A DNA stretch of 64,000 nucleotides from Paenibacillus dendritiformis (GTDB lineage Bacteria > Bacillota > Bacilli > Paenibacillales > Paenibacillaceae). How positions within the stretch are numbered: the stretch's first letter is position 1; each line of letters begins with the position of its first letter. The DNA lies in assembly GCF_945605565.1 (NCBI RefSeq), contig NZ_OX216966.1, forward strand, positions 2,181,501 to 2,245,500. Reading direction: 5' to 3'. Shown piece by piece: positions 6,331 through 26,532 of the stretch. A program made the position numbers and the translations under genes. The notes below the pieces were generated by a model that saw nothing but the letters and a program-made list of their open reading frames with translations, was not told the origin of the DNA and did no database searches.

Positions 6331-6647
6331 GATCTTTTTGAATTGATCTCTTCTAAGTTGTTCTCATCAAAGTCTTTCCCCCGCAGGGTAGAGTTCCTCT
6401 CCAGCGCCGTTATCCCGAATATAGAATAGTATCCCTGTGTGTAGATATTTATCCTTGTAGCCGGCCCGCATAGGGTGTTTTATTGGAATTATAGAGCTCC
6501 TGGGAATATTTTGCTCGGTATTGCTCGGTGGTAACAGAGACTGCAGCGGCCAGGAGGGGACGAAGTTGGAGGTGATGCAGCGAAGACGGAGACGTTGGCC
6601 TTCCCGAAGGCTTGATTCATGTTGATAAAAAGGAGGAATGTAATGAA

Positions 6648-9600
6648 ATGAGGGCAGCGAACCGCAAAGCTCTGGTTTTTCTATTCGTGCTCGCCTTGCT
6701 CTGTTCCGTATTCCCCGCAAGCGTATTTGCGGCGCCGTCATGGGCGCCGAATACCGATTATCGGGCTGGCGATGTCGTCACCTACGGCGGCGCCGACTAC
6801 AAGTGCATCCAGCCGCACACCTCGCTAAGCGGATGGGAGCCGCCGAATGCGCCGGCGCTTTGGACTCCTCATGCAGGCCCCGGACCGGACCCAGATCCGG
6901 ATCCGGATACCGAGCCGCCGACGGCTCCAGCGAATCTGGCCGTGACTGGCTTCACGTCCACGGCCGTGTCGTTAAGCTGGGACGCAGCGAGCGATAATGT
7001 CGGCGTCACCGGCTATGAGGTGTACCGGAACGGAACGCTCGCGGGAACGACCGCGATCACGTCGTATACCGTGACGGGACTGACGCCGGACACGTCGTAT
7101 TCGTTCACCGTGAAGGCGAAGGATGCGGCTGGCAATGCTTCTGCTCCGAGCGCGGCCGTGACCGCCACGACCGCGCCGGGAGGGCCTGGCCCGAACCCGG
7201 CTCCCGGCAAGCTGCTGATTGGCTACTGGCATAACTTCGACAACGGCTCGACCGCCCTGAAGCTGCGCGACGTATCGCCGCAGTATGACGTCATTCATGT
7301 CGCCTTCGCCGAGACGGTAGGGGGAGACCGCTCGACCTTGAGCTTCACGCCATACAACGCCACGGTCGAGGAATTCCGTTCGGATGTCGCCTATTTGCAC
7401 AGCCAGGGGAAGAAGGTGCTGATCTCCATCGGCGGGCAGAACGGCTCGGTTGAGCTTCACAGCAATCAGGACGTCCAAAATTTCGTCAATTCATTGGCAA
7501 GCATCATCCAGACCTATGGCTTTGACGGACTGGATATCGATTTGGAGGGCGGCTCCGTCTCGCTGGGCGCCGGGGATACGGATTACCGCCATCCGACGAC
7601 GCCGAAAATCGTGAATCTCATCGCCGCCGTCCGGCAGCTCAGCGATCGCGTCGGCCCGGGCTTCATGCTGACGATGGCGCCGGAGATCGCCTACGTCCAG
7701 GGCGGCATCGTCGCCTACGCCGGTCCATGGGGCGCTTACCTGCCTGTCATTCACGGGCTGCGCGACAAGCTGGATTTCATTCATGTCCAGCATTATAACG
7801 CCGGCGGCAACGAGGCGCTGGACGGCCGCGTCTACACGCAGGGGACGGCCGATTTCCAGGTGGCCATGGCGGAAATGCTGCTGCGGGGCTTCCCGATCGG
7901 ACGCAACCCGAACAATCTGTTCCAGCCGCTGCGGGAAGATCAGGTCGCAATCGGCCTCCCGGCCGTGCCTAGCGCCGCTCCTTCGGGCGGCTACACCTCG
8001 GGGGCGGATATCGCGAAGGCACTCCGCTATATAGTGAAGGGCACATCCTACGGCGGTGCGTATACGCTGCAGCAAGCCGGGGGCTATCCGAACTTCCGCG
8101 GCGTGATGACATGGTCGGTCAATTGGGACGCTACGAGCGGCTATGCCTTTGCCAATCAGGTCCGATCGGCCTTCAACGGATTAAGCAGCGCCTCCGGTCT
8201 TGCCGCTGGCCCGGAGCAGGCGGTCCGCATTCTGTCGTCGCCGTCAGCAATCGCCGAAGCGTCGCTATCAGCAGTCGTAAAAGCGCCGCCGGCTGCTGAC
8301 GGTGCTCTCGCCGCTGCCGCCTGGGCTCCGGGGGTGAGCTACGCCGCCGACGATCTCGTCTCGTATCAAGGGAAGATATACCGCTGCCGGCAGCCGCATA
8401 CGTCCCTGGCGGGCTGGGAGCCGCCCAACGTGCCGGCGCTCTGGAGCTACGTCAGCGAGGGGGAAGAGCCGGAGGATAACGAACCACCCAGCGCTCCGGC
8501 CGATCTGAGGCTGATCGGCAAGACGGCGACCAGCGTGTCGCTCGCCTGGAGCCCGGCGACAGACAATATCGGAGTAACGGGATATGAGGTGTACCGGGAT
8601 CAGACGTTGGCCACCACGACGAGCGGCACTACCGCGAATGTCACCGGATTGGCGCCGGAGACGGCGTATTCCTTTGCGGTGAAGGCGAAGGATGCGGCGG
8701 GCAATGTGTCACCGCCCAGCGCCGCCTTGAGCGTGACGACCTCCGCTGCCGGCGGGCCGGGTCCGCTGCCCGGCAAAGTATTGGTCGGCTACTGGCATAA
8801 CTTCGTGAACGGTGCGGGCTTCCTTTCGCTGCGGGAGGTCTCCGCCAATTTCGATGTTATCCATGTCGCATTTGCCGAGCCGGCGGACAACAGCGGGAAC
8901 ATTGAATTCACGCCTTACCAATATACCGATGCCGCCTTCAAGGAAGATGTCGCTTACTTGCAGAGTCTAGGCAAAAAAGTGACCATCTCGATCGGCGGCC
9001 AGAACGGCCACGTCGAATTGACGACTCCCGCCGCTCGCGACCGGTTCGTCCAATCGATGATCGCGATTATCGAGAAGTACGGCTTCGACGGATTGGACAT
9101 TGATTTCGAAGGGCAATCGCTTTATTTGAACCAGGGGGACACCGACCTCGAGCGCCCGACGACACCGGCTGTTATCCATCTGATTGAGGCGCTGCGCGCC
9201 ATTCATGATCATTTCGGATCGGATTTCCTGCTGACGATGGCGCCGGAGACGTTTTTCGTCCAGGTCGGGTATACGAATTATGGCGCCGGCCAATGGGGCG
9301 GCGATCGGCGCGCCGGGGCATACTTGCCCGTCATCCATGCCTTGCGCGACATCATCGCTTGGGTGCAGGTGCAGCATTACAATTCCGGACCGGTGACCGG
9401 CCTGGACAATCGGTATTATACGATGGGCAGTGCCGACTTCCATGTGGCGATGGCCGACATGCTGGTGACGGGCTTCCCGCTCGCCAAAGATCCGAACCGG
9501 GTCTTCCCGGGGCTGCGCCCGGATCAGGTCGTCATCGGCCTGCCTGCTGACAGCCAGGCGGGCAACGGCTATACGGGCGTCGCAGAAGTGCATAAGGCGC

Positions 9601-9809
9601 TCGATTATCTCATCAAGGGGCGAGCGTTCGGGGGCAGCTATACGCTGCGGAACCCGGCCGGTTATCCCGAGCTCCGCGGCTTGATGACGTGGTCGATCAA
9701 TTGGGACCGCTTCAATCGATTCGGCTTCTCCAATCCGCATCGCGCTTATCTGGACCAGTTGAATGGATTGTCCTCCGGAAGAGGAGGGCCGAACGGAGGG
9801 GACTTTTGA
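6648..9809 (+). CDS. Secreted tandem-duplicated GH18 chitinase (ChiD-type, twice CBM5-FnIII-GH18)
   Basis: A 1053-aa exported enzyme. Residues 1-29 form a signal peptide (basic start, hydrophobic core, cleavage near VFAAP). Two full modules follow. Module 1: chitin-binding CBM5/12 (about 30-75, ending HTSLSGWEPPNAPALW), a Pro-Asp linker, fibronectin III (about 92-176) and a GH18 catalytic domain (about 186-515) with FDGLDIDLE, catalytic acid E300. Module 2: CBM5 (about 556-600), FnIII (about 612-700) and GH18 (about 708-1040) with FDGLDIDFE, catalytic acid E821. Each module has the order seen in Bacillus ChiD. The frame extends upstream to a TTG at 6612, but the ATG at 6648 begins the signal peptide and has AGGAGG at 6631-6636 (11-nt spacing, slightly long). 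Both active-site motifs are intact, so two working hydrolytic centres are likely. Confidence 0.93.
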   Translation: MRAANRKALVFLFVLALLCSVFPASVFAAPSWAPNTDYRAGDVVTYGGADYKCIQPHTSLSGWEPPNAPALWTPHAGPGPDPDPDPDTEPPTAPANLAVTGFTSTAVSLSWDAASDNVGVTGYEVYRNGTLAGTTAITSYTVTGLTPDTSYSFTVKAKDAAGNASAPSAAVTATTAPGGPGPNPAPGKLLIGYWHNFDNGSTALKLRDVSPQYDVIHVAFAETVGGDRSTLSFTPYNATVEEFRSDVAYLHSQGKKVLISIGGQNGSVELHSNQDVQNFVNSLASIIQTYGFDGLDIDLEGGSVSLGAGDTDYRHPTTPKIVNLIAAVRQLSDRVGPGFMLTMAPEIAYVQGGIVAYAGPWGAYLPVIHGLRDKLDFIHVQHYNAGGNEALDGRVYTQGTADFQVAMAEMLLRGFPIGRNPNNLFQPLREDQVAIGLPAVPSAAPSGGYTSGADIAKALRYIVKGTSYGGAYTLQQAGGYPNFRGVMTWSVNWDATSGYAFANQVRSAFNGLSSASGLAAGPEQAVRILSSPSAIAEASLSAVVKAPPAADGALAAAAWAPGVSYAADDLVSYQGKIYRCRQPHTSLAGWEPPNVPALWSYVSEGEEPEDNEPPSAPADLRLIGKTATSVSLAWSPATDNIGVTGYEVYRDQTLATTTSGTTANVTGLAPETAYSFAVKAKDAAGNVSPPSAALSVTTSAAGGPGPLPGKVLVGYWHNFVNGAGFLSLREVSANFDVIHVAFAEPADNSGNIEFTPYQYTDAAFKEDVAYLQSLGKKVTISIGGQNGHVELTTPAARDRFVQSMIAIIEKYGFDGLDIDFEGQSLYLNQGDTDLERPTTPAVIHLIEALRAIHDHFGSDFLLTMAPETFFVQVGYTNYGAGQWGGDRRAGAYLPVIHALRDIIAWVQVQHYNSGPVTGLDNRYYTMGSADFHVAMADMLVTGFPLAKDPNRVFPGLRPDQVVIGLPADSQAGNGYTGVAEVHKALDYLIKGRAFGGSYTLRNPAGYPELRGLMTWSINWDRFNRFGFSNPHRAYLDQLNGLSSGRGGPNGGDF

Positions 9810-9835
9810 CAGAAGGCGGCCGCATCGCATACAAT
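9806..9835 (+). promoter_or_regulatory. Strong SigA-type promoter for the ABC-F leader
   Basis: Consensus TTGACA (9806-9811), an 18-bp spacer and TACAAT (9830-9835). The -35 box overlaps the chitinase stop codon. Transcription would begin near 9842, giving a leader of about 420 nt before the ABC-F start. Confidence 0.7.
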
Positions 9836-9956
9836 GAAGATATGCCTGCCGCAGCGAGACGGGCGGGCAAAACATTCGAAGGAAAGGGAAAGGTACATCG
9901 CCGATGATTAATTAATCCGAACTGAAGCGAATCATTTTGACTATATCGATCTCAAA

Positions 9957-9977
9957 ATGTACGTTCAGAGAGGATAG
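9957..9977 (+). other. Candidate leader peptide MYVQRG
   Basis: ATG TAC GTT CAG AGA GGA TAG lies in the ABC-F leader and its stop codon is inside the antiterminator strand. No strong ribosome binding site precedes it, so translation is uncertain. If it is translated, a ribosome here would mask the strand at 9966-9979. Confidence 0.3.
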
Positions 9978-10236
9978 ATCTGCCTGCTGGCGGATTGTCA
10001 CCGGCTATGTCTTGACCGAAATTCAAGGATATGATTGCTGCTGCGCGCTTCGGCGCAGTGAGACCCTGCGCTGACACGCGCGGAGGACTGGCTGCCTAAG
10101 CGGTGCAGGCGCTGCAAGATGCAGGCGGCTTCGGCCGCTTGCGAAGAGACGCTGCCTCTGGGGCACGCGCCGTCTTGCGGCTTGCCGGCAGCATGGCCAG
10201 CGGCCAGACATCCTTGAGCATTGCCGTAACATCTAT

Positions 10237-10264
10237 CCTCTCTGGAATCCAGGGAGGTTTTTTT
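10237..10264 (+). terminator. Attenuator terminator abutting the ABC-F start codon
   Basis: A 9-bp stem (10237-10245 with 10249-10257, one G-T pair), a 3-nt loop and seven T (10258-10264), then ATG at 10265. The 3' arm carries the GGAGG ribosome binding site, so the hairpin would both stop transcription and hide the site. Confidence 0.8.
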
Positions 10265-11995
10265 ATGAATTCAATCAGACATACCGAAGGCAGGCAGATG
10301 CCGCCTGCCGGCAAGCTTGTATTAGAGGCGAGCGGCCTGGCCGCCGAGGCCGGAGACCGCCGCCTGTTCACGATTCCCGAGACGCTGCGCGTCTATTCCG
10401 GCGAACGGATCGGACTGATCGGGGCAAACGGCGCTGGCAAGACGACGCTGATCCGGATATTGGCCGGGCTGCTGGAGCCCGCGCAAGGGAGTGTGCGGCA
10501 AATGGCGTCCTGCGCCTTCGTGCCCCAGCTCGACGATATTCGTGATGAAGTCTCGGCCGAGGCAACGCTTAGCGGCGGAGAACGGACGAAGCAGCGGCTC
10601 GAACAGGCGCTGCAGGGCGGCGCCGAGCTGCTGCTGCTCGACGAGCCGACCAGCCATCTCGATATGGAGCAGATGAAGCGGATGGAAGACCGGCTGCTCG
10701 ATTTCTCACGGACGGGCACGCTGCTGCTTATCTCGCATGACCGGACGCTCCTGAACCGGGTCTGCACGAAAATATGGGAGATGGAGAACGGGACCCTCCA
10801 TATTTATGCCGGCGGCTACGACGATTACTGCGTAGAGAAGGAACGGCTGCGTACGGAGCGCCAGCGCGAGTATGACCAGTACATCGCGGAGCGGGACCGG
10901 CTGCAGGAGATGATCGTCCAGACGAGGGTCATGGCGCAGGGCGTCGGCACCCCGCGTCCGCGCAAAGGATTGACCAGCAAGGAGATTCGTTCTGCGCGGC
11001 CCCACTTCAACCGCAAGCAGGGAAAGATGGACAAACGGGTCAAGGCGATGGAGACGCGGCTGGAGAAGCTGCCGCAGGTGGAGCGCCCGTTCGAGCTTCC
11101 GCCCGTCGCCTTCGATGCGGAATGCCATCGGCCGCTCCGGAGCAAGAGCGCGCTTGAGGTCAAGGAGCTGCGGCTGTGCGCCGGGGAGCGGGAACTGGTG
11201 CGGGACGGCAGCTTCCGCATCCGTCCGCAGATGAAGGTGGCCTTGCTCGGGCCGAACGGATCGGGGAAAACGACGCTGCTGCGGCTGCTGAAGCAGAGAA
11301 GCGAAGCGCTGGACGGCGGGCCGGAAGAGGGCGCTTCATCCGCTATGATCCGGTTCGCGCCGAATGCGCGCGTCGCCTATTTCGATCAGAAGCTGTACTC
11401 GCTTGACCTGCAGGAGAGCGCCTTGGCGAATGTGCAGAAGTCAAGCGCCTACGACCAGACCGCCATTCGCACGGCGCTGGCCCGGCTGCGGCTCCGCCGG
11501 GACGAGGCGTTGAAGCCGGTCTGGCAGCTGAGCGGCGGAGAGAAGGTCAAGACGCAGCTCGTCAAGCTGTTCTTGAGCGAAGCCAATGTGCTGCTGCTGG
11601 ATGAGCCGACGAATTACCTCGACATCGAGGCGCGCGAGGAGCTGGAGCGGGTGCTGGCCGCCTATCCGGGGACGCTACTGTTCGCGACCCATGACCGTAT
11701 GCTGCTGGAACGGACGGCCACGCATGTCCTCCGCTTCAGCGGACAGTCGCTGGAGCTGCTGCCGATCGAGATGCTGCATGCCGAGAAGAAGTCGCCGCAA
11801 CAGCCAGAGCCGCAAGCCGAAGGCTCCGCCCGAGAGGAAGCGGCCTGGACGGAGGAGCAGCGGATGATGGTCGAGCTGGAATGGTCCGAGCTGCTGTCCC
11901 GGCTGTCCCAGCCGGTTCGCCAGGACGAGGCCGAGAAGGAGCGGCTGGAGCGGCGTTATGCCGAATTGCTGGAGCTGCGCCGGGCGATGCGATGA
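10265..11995 (+). CDS. ABC-F ribosome-protection protein (VmlR/Msr/Vga-like)
   Basis: A 576-aa soluble protein with two ABC ATPase domains and no membrane segment. Domain 1: Walker A GANGAGKTT, signature LSGGERTKQ, Walker B LLLLDEPTSHLD, switch ISHDR. Domain 2: GPNGSGKTT, LSGGEKVKT, LLLDEPTNYLD, ATHDR. Between them lies a long charged linker (about residues 190-290) that in antibiotic-resistance ABC-F proteins reaches the ribosomal peptidyl-transferase centre and dislodges drugs. The first ATPase domain is short between Walker A and the signature, as in VmlR. The frame opens at 10103, but ATG 10265 with AGGGAGGT is the credible start and the upstream part is leader. Likely phenotype: tolerance to lincosamides, streptogramins A, pleuromutilins or macrolides. 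This is family knowledge, not seen here. Confidence 0.88.
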   Translation: MNSIRHTEGRQMPPAGKLVLEASGLAAEAGDRRLFTIPETLRVYSGERIGLIGANGAGKTTLIRILAGLLEPAQGSVRQMASCAFVPQLDDIRDEVSAEATLSGGERTKQRLEQALQGGAELLLLDEPTSHLDMEQMKRMEDRLLDFSRTGTLLLISHDRTLLNRVCTKIWEMENGTLHIYAGGYDDYCVEKERLRTERQREYDQYIAERDRLQEMIVQTRVMAQGVGTPRPRKGLTSKEIRSARPHFNRKQGKMDKRVKAMETRLEKLPQVERPFELPPVAFDAECHRPLRSKSALEVKELRLCAGERELVRDGSFRIRPQMKVALLGPNGSGKTTLLRLLKQRSEALDGGPEEGASSAMIRFAPNARVAYFDQKLYSLDLQESALANVQKSSAYDQTAIRTALARLRLRRDEALKPVWQLSGGEKVKTQLVKLFLSEANVLLLDEPTNYLDIEAREELERVLAAYPGTLLFATHDRMLLERTATHVLRFSGQSLELLPIEMLHAEKKSPQQPEPQAEGSAREEAAWTEEQRMMVELEWSELLSRLSQPVRQDEAEKERLERRYAELLELRRAMR

Positions 11996-26360: not shown

Positions 26361-26377
26361 CTCGTTATGAATTGAAT

Positions 26378-26512
26378 ACAGCCGAATTTCGTGAATACGA
26401 AAGCGGGGGACCCGATCATTGGGGTGAATTTTGCGCCGATCCGCGTTAAGGATCGACGCAAATAGGGCGGCCTGGACGCGCCCGAATCCGTCAGCTAACC
26501 TCGTAGGCATTG
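26378..26512 (+). ncRNA. ydaO/yuaA riboswitch (c-di-AMP)
   Basis: The sequence has the conserved order of the ydaO/yuaA class: GCCGAAT, CGGGGGACCCGA, TTGGGGTGAA, TTGCGCC, TTAAGGATCGACGC, then CCCGAATCCGTCAGCTAACC and TCGTAGGC. A terminator follows at 26533-26558. The class binds c-di-AMP and turns off downstream potassium-uptake genes, which fits the ktrB-ktrA genes here. Confidence 0.95.
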
Positions 26513-26532
26513 AACGTCAGGATACCAGCGTT

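Follow-up and report, generated by a model that had tools for sequence, protein, structure and literature searches.

A probable ribosome-mediated attenuator of the vmlR/Rli53 kind before an ABC-F gene of Paenibacillus dendritiformis, with homologous leaders before other resistance genes

The DNA analysed here (the window; a stretch of 64,000 nucleotides from a 6.7-Mb genome of Paenibacillus dendritiformis) contains an ABC-F gene preceded by a promoter and a leader of ~420 nt (Table 1). The consensus promoter that an earlier, sequence-only reading had placed at the head of this leader is indeed there, and its start is overlapped by the stop codon of a long ORF (6612-9809) that by eye resembles a secreted chitinase. 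Elsewhere in the window, a c-di-AMP riboswitch (RF00379, 85.9 bits) was found at 26370-26525. Family models described the ABC-F protein as a Vga-like ribosomal-protection ABC-F that passed the general ribo_prot_ABC_F cut-off and, of the 25 families shown, fell below the cut-offs of Vga and of all further ARE classes that bear a name. The nearest solved structures by sequence were 7nhl, a lincosamide-streptogramin A resistance protein of the VgaA type that we take to be VgaA itself, and 7nhn, Lmo0919. In named records, the closest ABC-F genes came from a Paenibacillus sp. and from P. dendritiformis (95% and 92% identity, respectively, over the best segment). Lincomycin MICs of 32 and 64 μg/ml appear for two P. 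dendritiformis honey isolates in a table of PMC8116656, its columns taken in footnote order; these values agree with intrinsic resistance, without tying that resistance to the ABC-F gene of the window.

Table 1. Positions in the window of the ABC-F gene and of the observed and predicted elements of its leader.
Feature	Position	Strand	Basis or remark
Sigma-A-type promoter, TTGACA-18-TACAAT	9806-9835	+	11/12 to consensus
SD region of uORF, GGAAAGGGAAAGG	9881-9893	+	Sequence; GAAAGGG-like block conserved in alignment A1
Tripeptide uORF, Met-Ile-Asn-stop (MIN), proposed drug sensor	9904-9915	+	Sequence, conservation
Predicted anti-antiterminator, 5' strand: AUCC (9915-9918) and CUGAA (9922-9926)	9915-9926	+	Fold; starts at last base of uORF stop
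Predicted anti-antiterminator, inner hairpin CAUUUUGA/UCAAAAUG	9933-9959	+	Fold
Predicted anti-antiterminator, 3' strand: UUCAG (9964-9968) and GGAU (9972-9975)	9964-9975	+	Fold; overlaps antiterminator strand
MYVQRG frame of the sequence-only reading	9957-9977	+	Present; judged not to be the sensor
Predicted antiterminator strand, CAGAGAGGATAGAT	9966-9979	+	Exact reverse complement of 10231-10244
Spacer, variable and GC-rich	9980-10230	+	Alignment; TCTGCC near start common to many relatives
Target of antiterminator strand, including terminator 5' arm	10231-10244	+	Complementarity, covariation test
Intrinsic terminator: 9-bp stem (10237-10257) and U7 (10258-10264)	10237-10264	+	Sequence, fold; ATG at 10265
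RBS of ABC-F gene, GGGAGG, within terminator 3' arm	10252-10257	+	Sequence
ARE-type ABC-F gene, 576 codons	10265-11995	+	ORF, family models, structure neighbours

The sequence-only reading had interpreted the leader as an attenuator in which an upstream strand, perfectly complementary over 14 nt to the terminator region, competes with a terminator that ends at the start codon and holds the RBS in its 3' arm. This much is supported by the fold, the complementarity and the relatives described below. The seven T residues end immediately before the ATG, the RBS lies within the 3' arm, and the 14-nt match is exact. That such a match was very unlikely by chance also held up, as no match of 14 nt appeared when the upstream leader was dinucleotide-shuffled 5000 times and set against the real terminator region (longest match 12), and 2 of 1000 shuffled leaders contained, at any position, an inverted repeat of at least 14 nt whose arms were separated by 100 nt or more. 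Absent from that reading was a tripeptide uORF, reading ATG ATT AAT TAA and located ten bases 3' of a strong SD. In the fold of the window leader an anti-antiterminator is also present, in which AUCC and CUGAA, next to this uORF, pair with the strand that would otherwise disrupt the terminator.

We modelled the window leader from 9842 to 10264, with a ribosome represented as a footprint block that covered 9889-9920 when placed on MIN. In free RNA the antiterminator had a probability of 0.001 and the terminator of 0.988, and a footprint on MIN inverted this balance (antiterminator 0.838, terminator 0.071), as did footprints one or two codons beyond MIN (0.90 and 0.001). Release of the RBS in the induced state was also looked for in the fold models and was not found: the RBS stayed paired in the ribosome-placed models (median unpaired probability 0.003 to 0.03), its accessibility hardly shifting.

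Conservation was assessed in 29 leaders, comprising that of the window and 28 of 29 other ABC-F loci fetched. The remaining locus was left out since its terminator lies ~180 nt upstream of the gene, although an MHN uORF, an antiterminator strand and a terminator can be made out in it by eye; two leaders missed by the search pattern (L015 and L022) were included by hand. A terminator or RBS-hiding hairpin stood at the gene start in 29 of the 30 ABC-F loci, window included. The U-run abutted the start codon in 23/29 leaders, lay one to seven bases from it in five and was lacking in L022. Tripeptide uORFs were present in 26 leaders (MxN in 20, MxK in 4 and MxY in 2), with tetrapeptides in two and a frame extended to 12 residues in one. 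This last, in L015 (about 3235, - strand), has lost the uORF stop codon and retains the remainder of the switch. The invariant columns of the alignment include the start codon of the uORF and the GGAT of the antiterminator strand, and a promoter-like site (8-12 of 12 by a simple pattern) preceded the uORF in 23/29 leaders, window included. The NusG pause motif TTNTTT was absent from the window spacer and present somewhere in the spacer of 18/29 leaders. Directly 3' of the antiterminator strand (9976-9984 in the window), many relatives carry a block, TCTGYCYATTT, at which a polymerase pause is possible.

Pairing between the antiterminator strand and its target was conserved, with 80.9% of alignment cells paired compared to at most 52.4% in slid registers, and in a duplex test of single leaders the observed pairing fell within the best 5% of shuffles in 23/29 leaders. 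Covariation between the two strands, which the sequence-only reading had proposed as a check, gave a divided answer. A total of 39 cells were changed on both sides, relative to 16.5 in shuffles (0/500 as high) and at most 14 in slid registers, whereas the two measures that relatedness affects least did not exceed shuffles, namely pairs changed on both sides (6 cf. 5.6; 308/500 as high) and further pair types (14 cf. 16.0; 491/500 as high). The anti-antiterminator was paired in 75.8% of A1 cells (at most 52.0% in slid registers) without covariation above shuffles (42/500 and 69/500 as high), and its 16 both-side changes compare with up to 20 in slid registers. Its pairing extends into the third and stop codons of the uORF, fully in four leaders (L010-L013) and with mismatches in the others, including the window.

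When all 29 leaders were folded at full length to equilibrium, at least six antiterminator pairs formed in 2/29 free transcripts, 15/29 with a ribosome on the uORF and 0/29 for the average of the controls, and the ribosome reduced the terminator by half or more in only 5/29. Equilibrium folding of the full-length leader is a weak test, and transcripts cut just before the 3' arm of the terminator are nearer to the moment of decision. Here, the controls were a block just 5' of the footprint, over the SD region, and a block of at most 32 nt placed in the spacer so as to overlap neither strand. The median number of antiterminator pairs in truncated transcripts was 0.61 when free and 18.03 with a ribosome, compared to 0.86 with the spacer block and 3.87 with the upstream block, and at least six pairs formed in 6/29, 28/29, 7/29 and 14/29 leaders, respectively. 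Randomly placed blocks, which in L020 and L021 were able to fall on part of the antiterminator strand, gave a median of 1.7 and at least six pairs in 6/29. One leader (L029) formed no antiterminator even when truncated. A rise of at least three pairs was seen with the upstream block in 11/29 leaders and with the ribosome in 25/29. Since the upstream block also raised the antiterminator, specificity for the position of the uORF is partial in these models, which is unsurprising given that this block covers the SD region.

Taken together, the sequence and the models make it very probable that the window leader is a ribosome-mediated transcription attenuator of the vmlR/Rli53 kind. Its anatomy, its conservation and the switch between modelled folds are direct results of the analysis; from homologous leaders that have been tested we infer the translation of the uORF, stalling by drug, termination and induction. 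Without drug, ribosomes would translate the MIN uORF fast and depart, upon which the anti-antiterminator would form and sequester the antiterminator strand, and polymerase would stop in the U-run at the ABC-F start codon. A drug that binds the peptidyl transferase centre (a lincosamide, pleuromutilin or streptogramin A) would hold the ribosome on the start codon of the uORF or immediately beyond it, with its footprint over the uORF stop codon and AUCC, so that the anti-antiterminator could not form. The freed antiterminator strand would then pair with its target before the 3' arm of the terminator exists, leading to read-through. Because that arm carries the RBS of the gene, the same hairpin may also hide the RBS on transcripts that have read through.

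The last point bears on the principal alternative, a mainly translational attenuator in which hiding of the RBS is primary and termination secondary. Such control would be in keeping with cplR of C. difficile, where regulation is described as surviving mutation of the U-run (PMC10201436), with L022 (1250-1494), whose RBS-hiding hairpin without a U-run suggests translation-only control, and with a plasmid vga(A) leader in which the antiterminator strand directly adjoins the start codon. Retention of a U-run of five or more in 28/29 leaders and the nearly unchanged accessibility of the RBS in the models argue against it, and we regard it as unlikely for the window. A constitutive terminator with a complementary strand arising by accident would fit the 24/29 full-length folds that kept at least half of the terminator pairs in the presence of a ribosome, yet the complementarity exceeds shuffles and recurs in relatives, which leaves this explanation scarcely tenable. 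We give equally little credence to a small-molecule riboswitch or another described RNA family. The leader is long and structured (z -4.29), as such an RNA might be, but no Rfam family reached its gathering threshold in the leader, the only match at E≤1 being an antisense one to RAGATH-35 below its threshold, and the uORF start codon is among the invariant columns along with the antiterminator GGAT.

The sequence-only reading had itself named a different sensor, the MYVQRG frame that overlaps the antiterminator strand, with the position of the ribosome on it setting the choice between folds. The frame exists, one of the same shape (ATG, five codons, TAG) occurs in 10/29 leaders, window included, and the position of a ribosome is the likely signal. 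As the sensing frame, however, MYVQRG is very improbable. A footprint there hid the antiterminator strand and preserved the terminator (probabilities of 0.000 and 0.989), the opposite of the result with MIN; no SD is visible by eye before the frame, its AUG lies within a hairpin stem, and no frame of this shape was found in 19/29 leaders, the conserved element being instead the tripeptide uORF. The models and the sequence thus indicate that MIN is likely to be the sensor. A leader peptide of the macrolide type, which is longer and has an RLR or similar stalling motif, was also considered and rejected, as the uORF encodes three residues and MYVQRG has no RLR.

We then searched for leaders homologous to that of the window using a covariance model (R1) of the 5' domain alone, built from 22 of the 29 leaders, without the terminator and without Bacillus vmlR leaders. 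At E≤0.1, R1 matched in 42 of 197 genomes of the family and in 95 of 398 genomes of the class Bacilli (57 of 146 genera); E-values were calculated per genome and hence some of these matches are due to chance. At E≤1e-3, matches remained in 70 of the 398 Bacilli genomes and 43 of the 146 genera. Among Bacillus-type leaders with MIN, R1 recovered the vmlR-type leaders L086 (8e-14) and L088 (7e-13), the latter with a GCTATTT hairpin and TTATTT pause motif as described for vmlR (PMC9226507). Since R1 does not contain the terminator, antiterminator pairing in its matches is an independent test. This was carried out on 75 of 83 class-level leaders from outside the set on which R1 was built, 8 having been left out (6 in which no uORF was found and 2 in which no terminator was found, one of these a Cfr leader, L149). 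The median number of antiterminator pairs was 0.1 in free transcripts and 12.83 with a ribosome, compared to 0.96 with the upstream block and 0.15 with the spacer block, and at least six pairs formed in 8/75, 71/75, 10/75 and 5/67, respectively. The upstream block raised the antiterminator by at least three pairs in 11/75 class-level leaders and in 2/17 leaders of genes other than ABC-F.

The downstream gene was examined for all 87 class-level matches at E≤1e-3. ABC-F genes, recognised by a BLASTP match to the window protein, made up 62 of these, followed by 10 genes of a second MFS family, 6 Vat, 2 Vgb, and one each of Cfr, Lnu and a Tet-like MFS, with 4 others. The second MFS family consists of L140 and nine others that are 64-95% identical to it. 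Assignments other than ABC-F were made by HMM, by BLASTP or, for L081 and L098, by eye from the N-terminal sequence, with family models run on one or two members each of Cfr, Vat, Vgb, Lnu and Tet-like MFS and on three of the second MFS family. Curated cut-offs were exceeded by Cfr (L063), Vat(I) (L070), Vat (L099) and Lnu(G) (L101). The names of Vgb and of the two MFS groups come from their best NCBIfam matches, which lay below such cut-offs. In the family search, for which the downstream gene was examined in 46 of 53 matches (30 in L040-L069 and 16 in L070-L085, with 7 weak ones left out), further leaders were found before Vat, Vat-Vgb, Vgb, Cfr and MFS genes; no ORF was found behind L068. 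Between them, leaders L063, L069, L101, L147, L149, L162, L064, L072, L073, L122, L140 and others precede Cfr, Vgb, Lnu(G) and the two MFS families. Among the 87 class-level matches, the genes behind L120, L127, L145 and L173 could not be tied to drug resistance, and these matches may be false positives or, for L120, may reflect a gene fragment.

A terminator was found in 17 of the 18 non-ABC-F leaders tested. These 17, which include two with broken Vat genes (L074 and L084) and a doubtful one before a peptidase gene (L082), all formed at least six antiterminator pairs with a ribosome on the uORF, compared to 1/17 when free, 4/17 with the upstream block and 1/16 with the spacer block. One such leader is a second copy of the attenuator in the genome that carries the window (G000:C1:3424107-3424201; L070 508-602). 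It has an MIY uORF, precedes a gene for a Vat(I)-type streptogramin A acetyltransferase (L070 758-1396) and formed 0.7 antiterminator pairs when free and 14.9 with a ribosome (1.5 and 3.3 in controls). In L074 and L084, from two relatives of the same genus, the Vat gene looks broken and the leader is retained, and L075 looks like a remnant without a terminator. Weak R1 matches also occurred before a RidA-like gene (L076 and L083), an Erm gene (L085) and another ABC-F-like gene of the same genome as the window (L117), in which longer frames are followed by a block resembling GGGAT..GTCTGYCCATTT. These are perhaps leaders for another drug class that have the antiterminator motif in common, and those before the RidA-like and Erm genes were not counted as the same switch.

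On balance, we think it more likely than not that these homologous tripeptide-uORF attenuators act across Bacilli as one portable sensor, shared between otherwise unrelated resistance genes (ABC-F, Vat acetyltransferase, Vgb lyase, Cfr methyltransferase, Lnu(G) nucleotidyltransferase and MFS pumps), of drugs that target the peptidyl transferase centre. A single genome such as that of the window could in this way run a cis-encoded multi-gene regulon without a protein regulator. If true, one ancestral RNA switch and one signal, the stalling of a ribosome at a start codon, would turn on chemically unrelated mechanisms, namely protection and methylation of the target, acetylation and cleavage of the drug, and efflux. 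The common ending of these uORFs in AAC or TAC followed by TAA (Asn or Tyr, then stop) may owe as much to RNA pairing as to the peptide, since the third and stop codons lie on or beside the anti-antiterminator strand. For the window, the intrinsic Paenibacillus ABC-F gene is probably silent until a drug reaches the ribosome, with the candidate sensor now corrected to MIN, and R1 would allow such genes to be recognised from sequence as probably inducible. Among the papers listed by full-text searches, no title or abstract dealt with such a leader in front of Vat, Vgb, Cfr, Lnu(G) or MFS genes, most subscription journals lying outside the coverage; the whole words vat, vgb, lnu and cfr do not occur in the main text of PMC9226507, nor the word "leader" in the main text of PMC5155152, which deals with VatI and VgbC of a Paenibacillus. 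Within the bounds of those searches, which are not proof of novelty, what appears to be new here is that homologous leaders precede, in addition to ABC-F genes, those for Vat, Vgb, Cfr, Lnu(G) and MFS proteins.

The sequence-only reading took the arrangement in the window to be undescribed, and this does not stand, as it matches a type known from several bacteria. Among these is the Listeria leader Rli53, for which Dar et al. 2016 is reportedly the primary paper. By published description, Rli53 (before lmo0919) has a three-codon ORF that overlaps the anti-antiterminator/antiterminator, and lincomycin relieves termination (PMC8079631); a further likeness is that Lmo0919 is one of the proteins of solved structure nearest to the window ABC-F. 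The vmlR uORF of B. subtilis encodes the same three residues as that of the window; toeprinting showed a start site there, and mutation showed that expression with lincomycin requires the uORF (PMC9226507). As described there, the vmlR leader also resembles that of the window in having an SD before the uORF, the uORF within an anti-antiterminator (SL-1), and an antiterminator that competes with the terminator (PMC9226507). The two differ in that vmlR has first a terminator (SL-3) and then a separate SL-4 that hides the RBS, whereas one hairpin serves for both in the window, and in that vmlR has the NusG pause motif whereas the window spacer does not (PMC9226507). A terminator hairpin that sequesters the RBS, with transcription stopping at the start codon, is described for cplR, which differs in its uORF (MRI) and in its leader of 212 nt cf. 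~420 nt (PMC10201436). The plasmid vga(A) leader mentioned above (staphylococcal; NC_019304.1, L118 303-437; R1 E 1e-4 in a 22-kb search) shares the MIN uORF, the SD GAAAGGG and a GGATAGGAT strand; unlike in the window, this strand directly adjoins the start codon of vga(A) with no terminator between, and hence the anti-antiterminator hairpin may itself hide the vga(A) RBS in a shortened form of the switch. A hairpin at the start codon that both terminates and hides the RBS is already known from the account of cplR (PMC10201436), and the three-codon ORF with an anti-antiterminator from that of Rli53 (PMC8079631). Four features of the vmlR/Rli53 type are present in the window, namely a three-codon uORF with its SD, an overlapping anti-antiterminator, an antiterminator that excludes the terminator, and leader homology, and a fifth, the favouring of the antiterminator by a ribosome on the uORF, was seen in models, where full-length relatives were mixed. 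Overall, by its sequence and modelled folds, the window leader belongs to the known vmlR/Rli53/cplR kind of attenuator.
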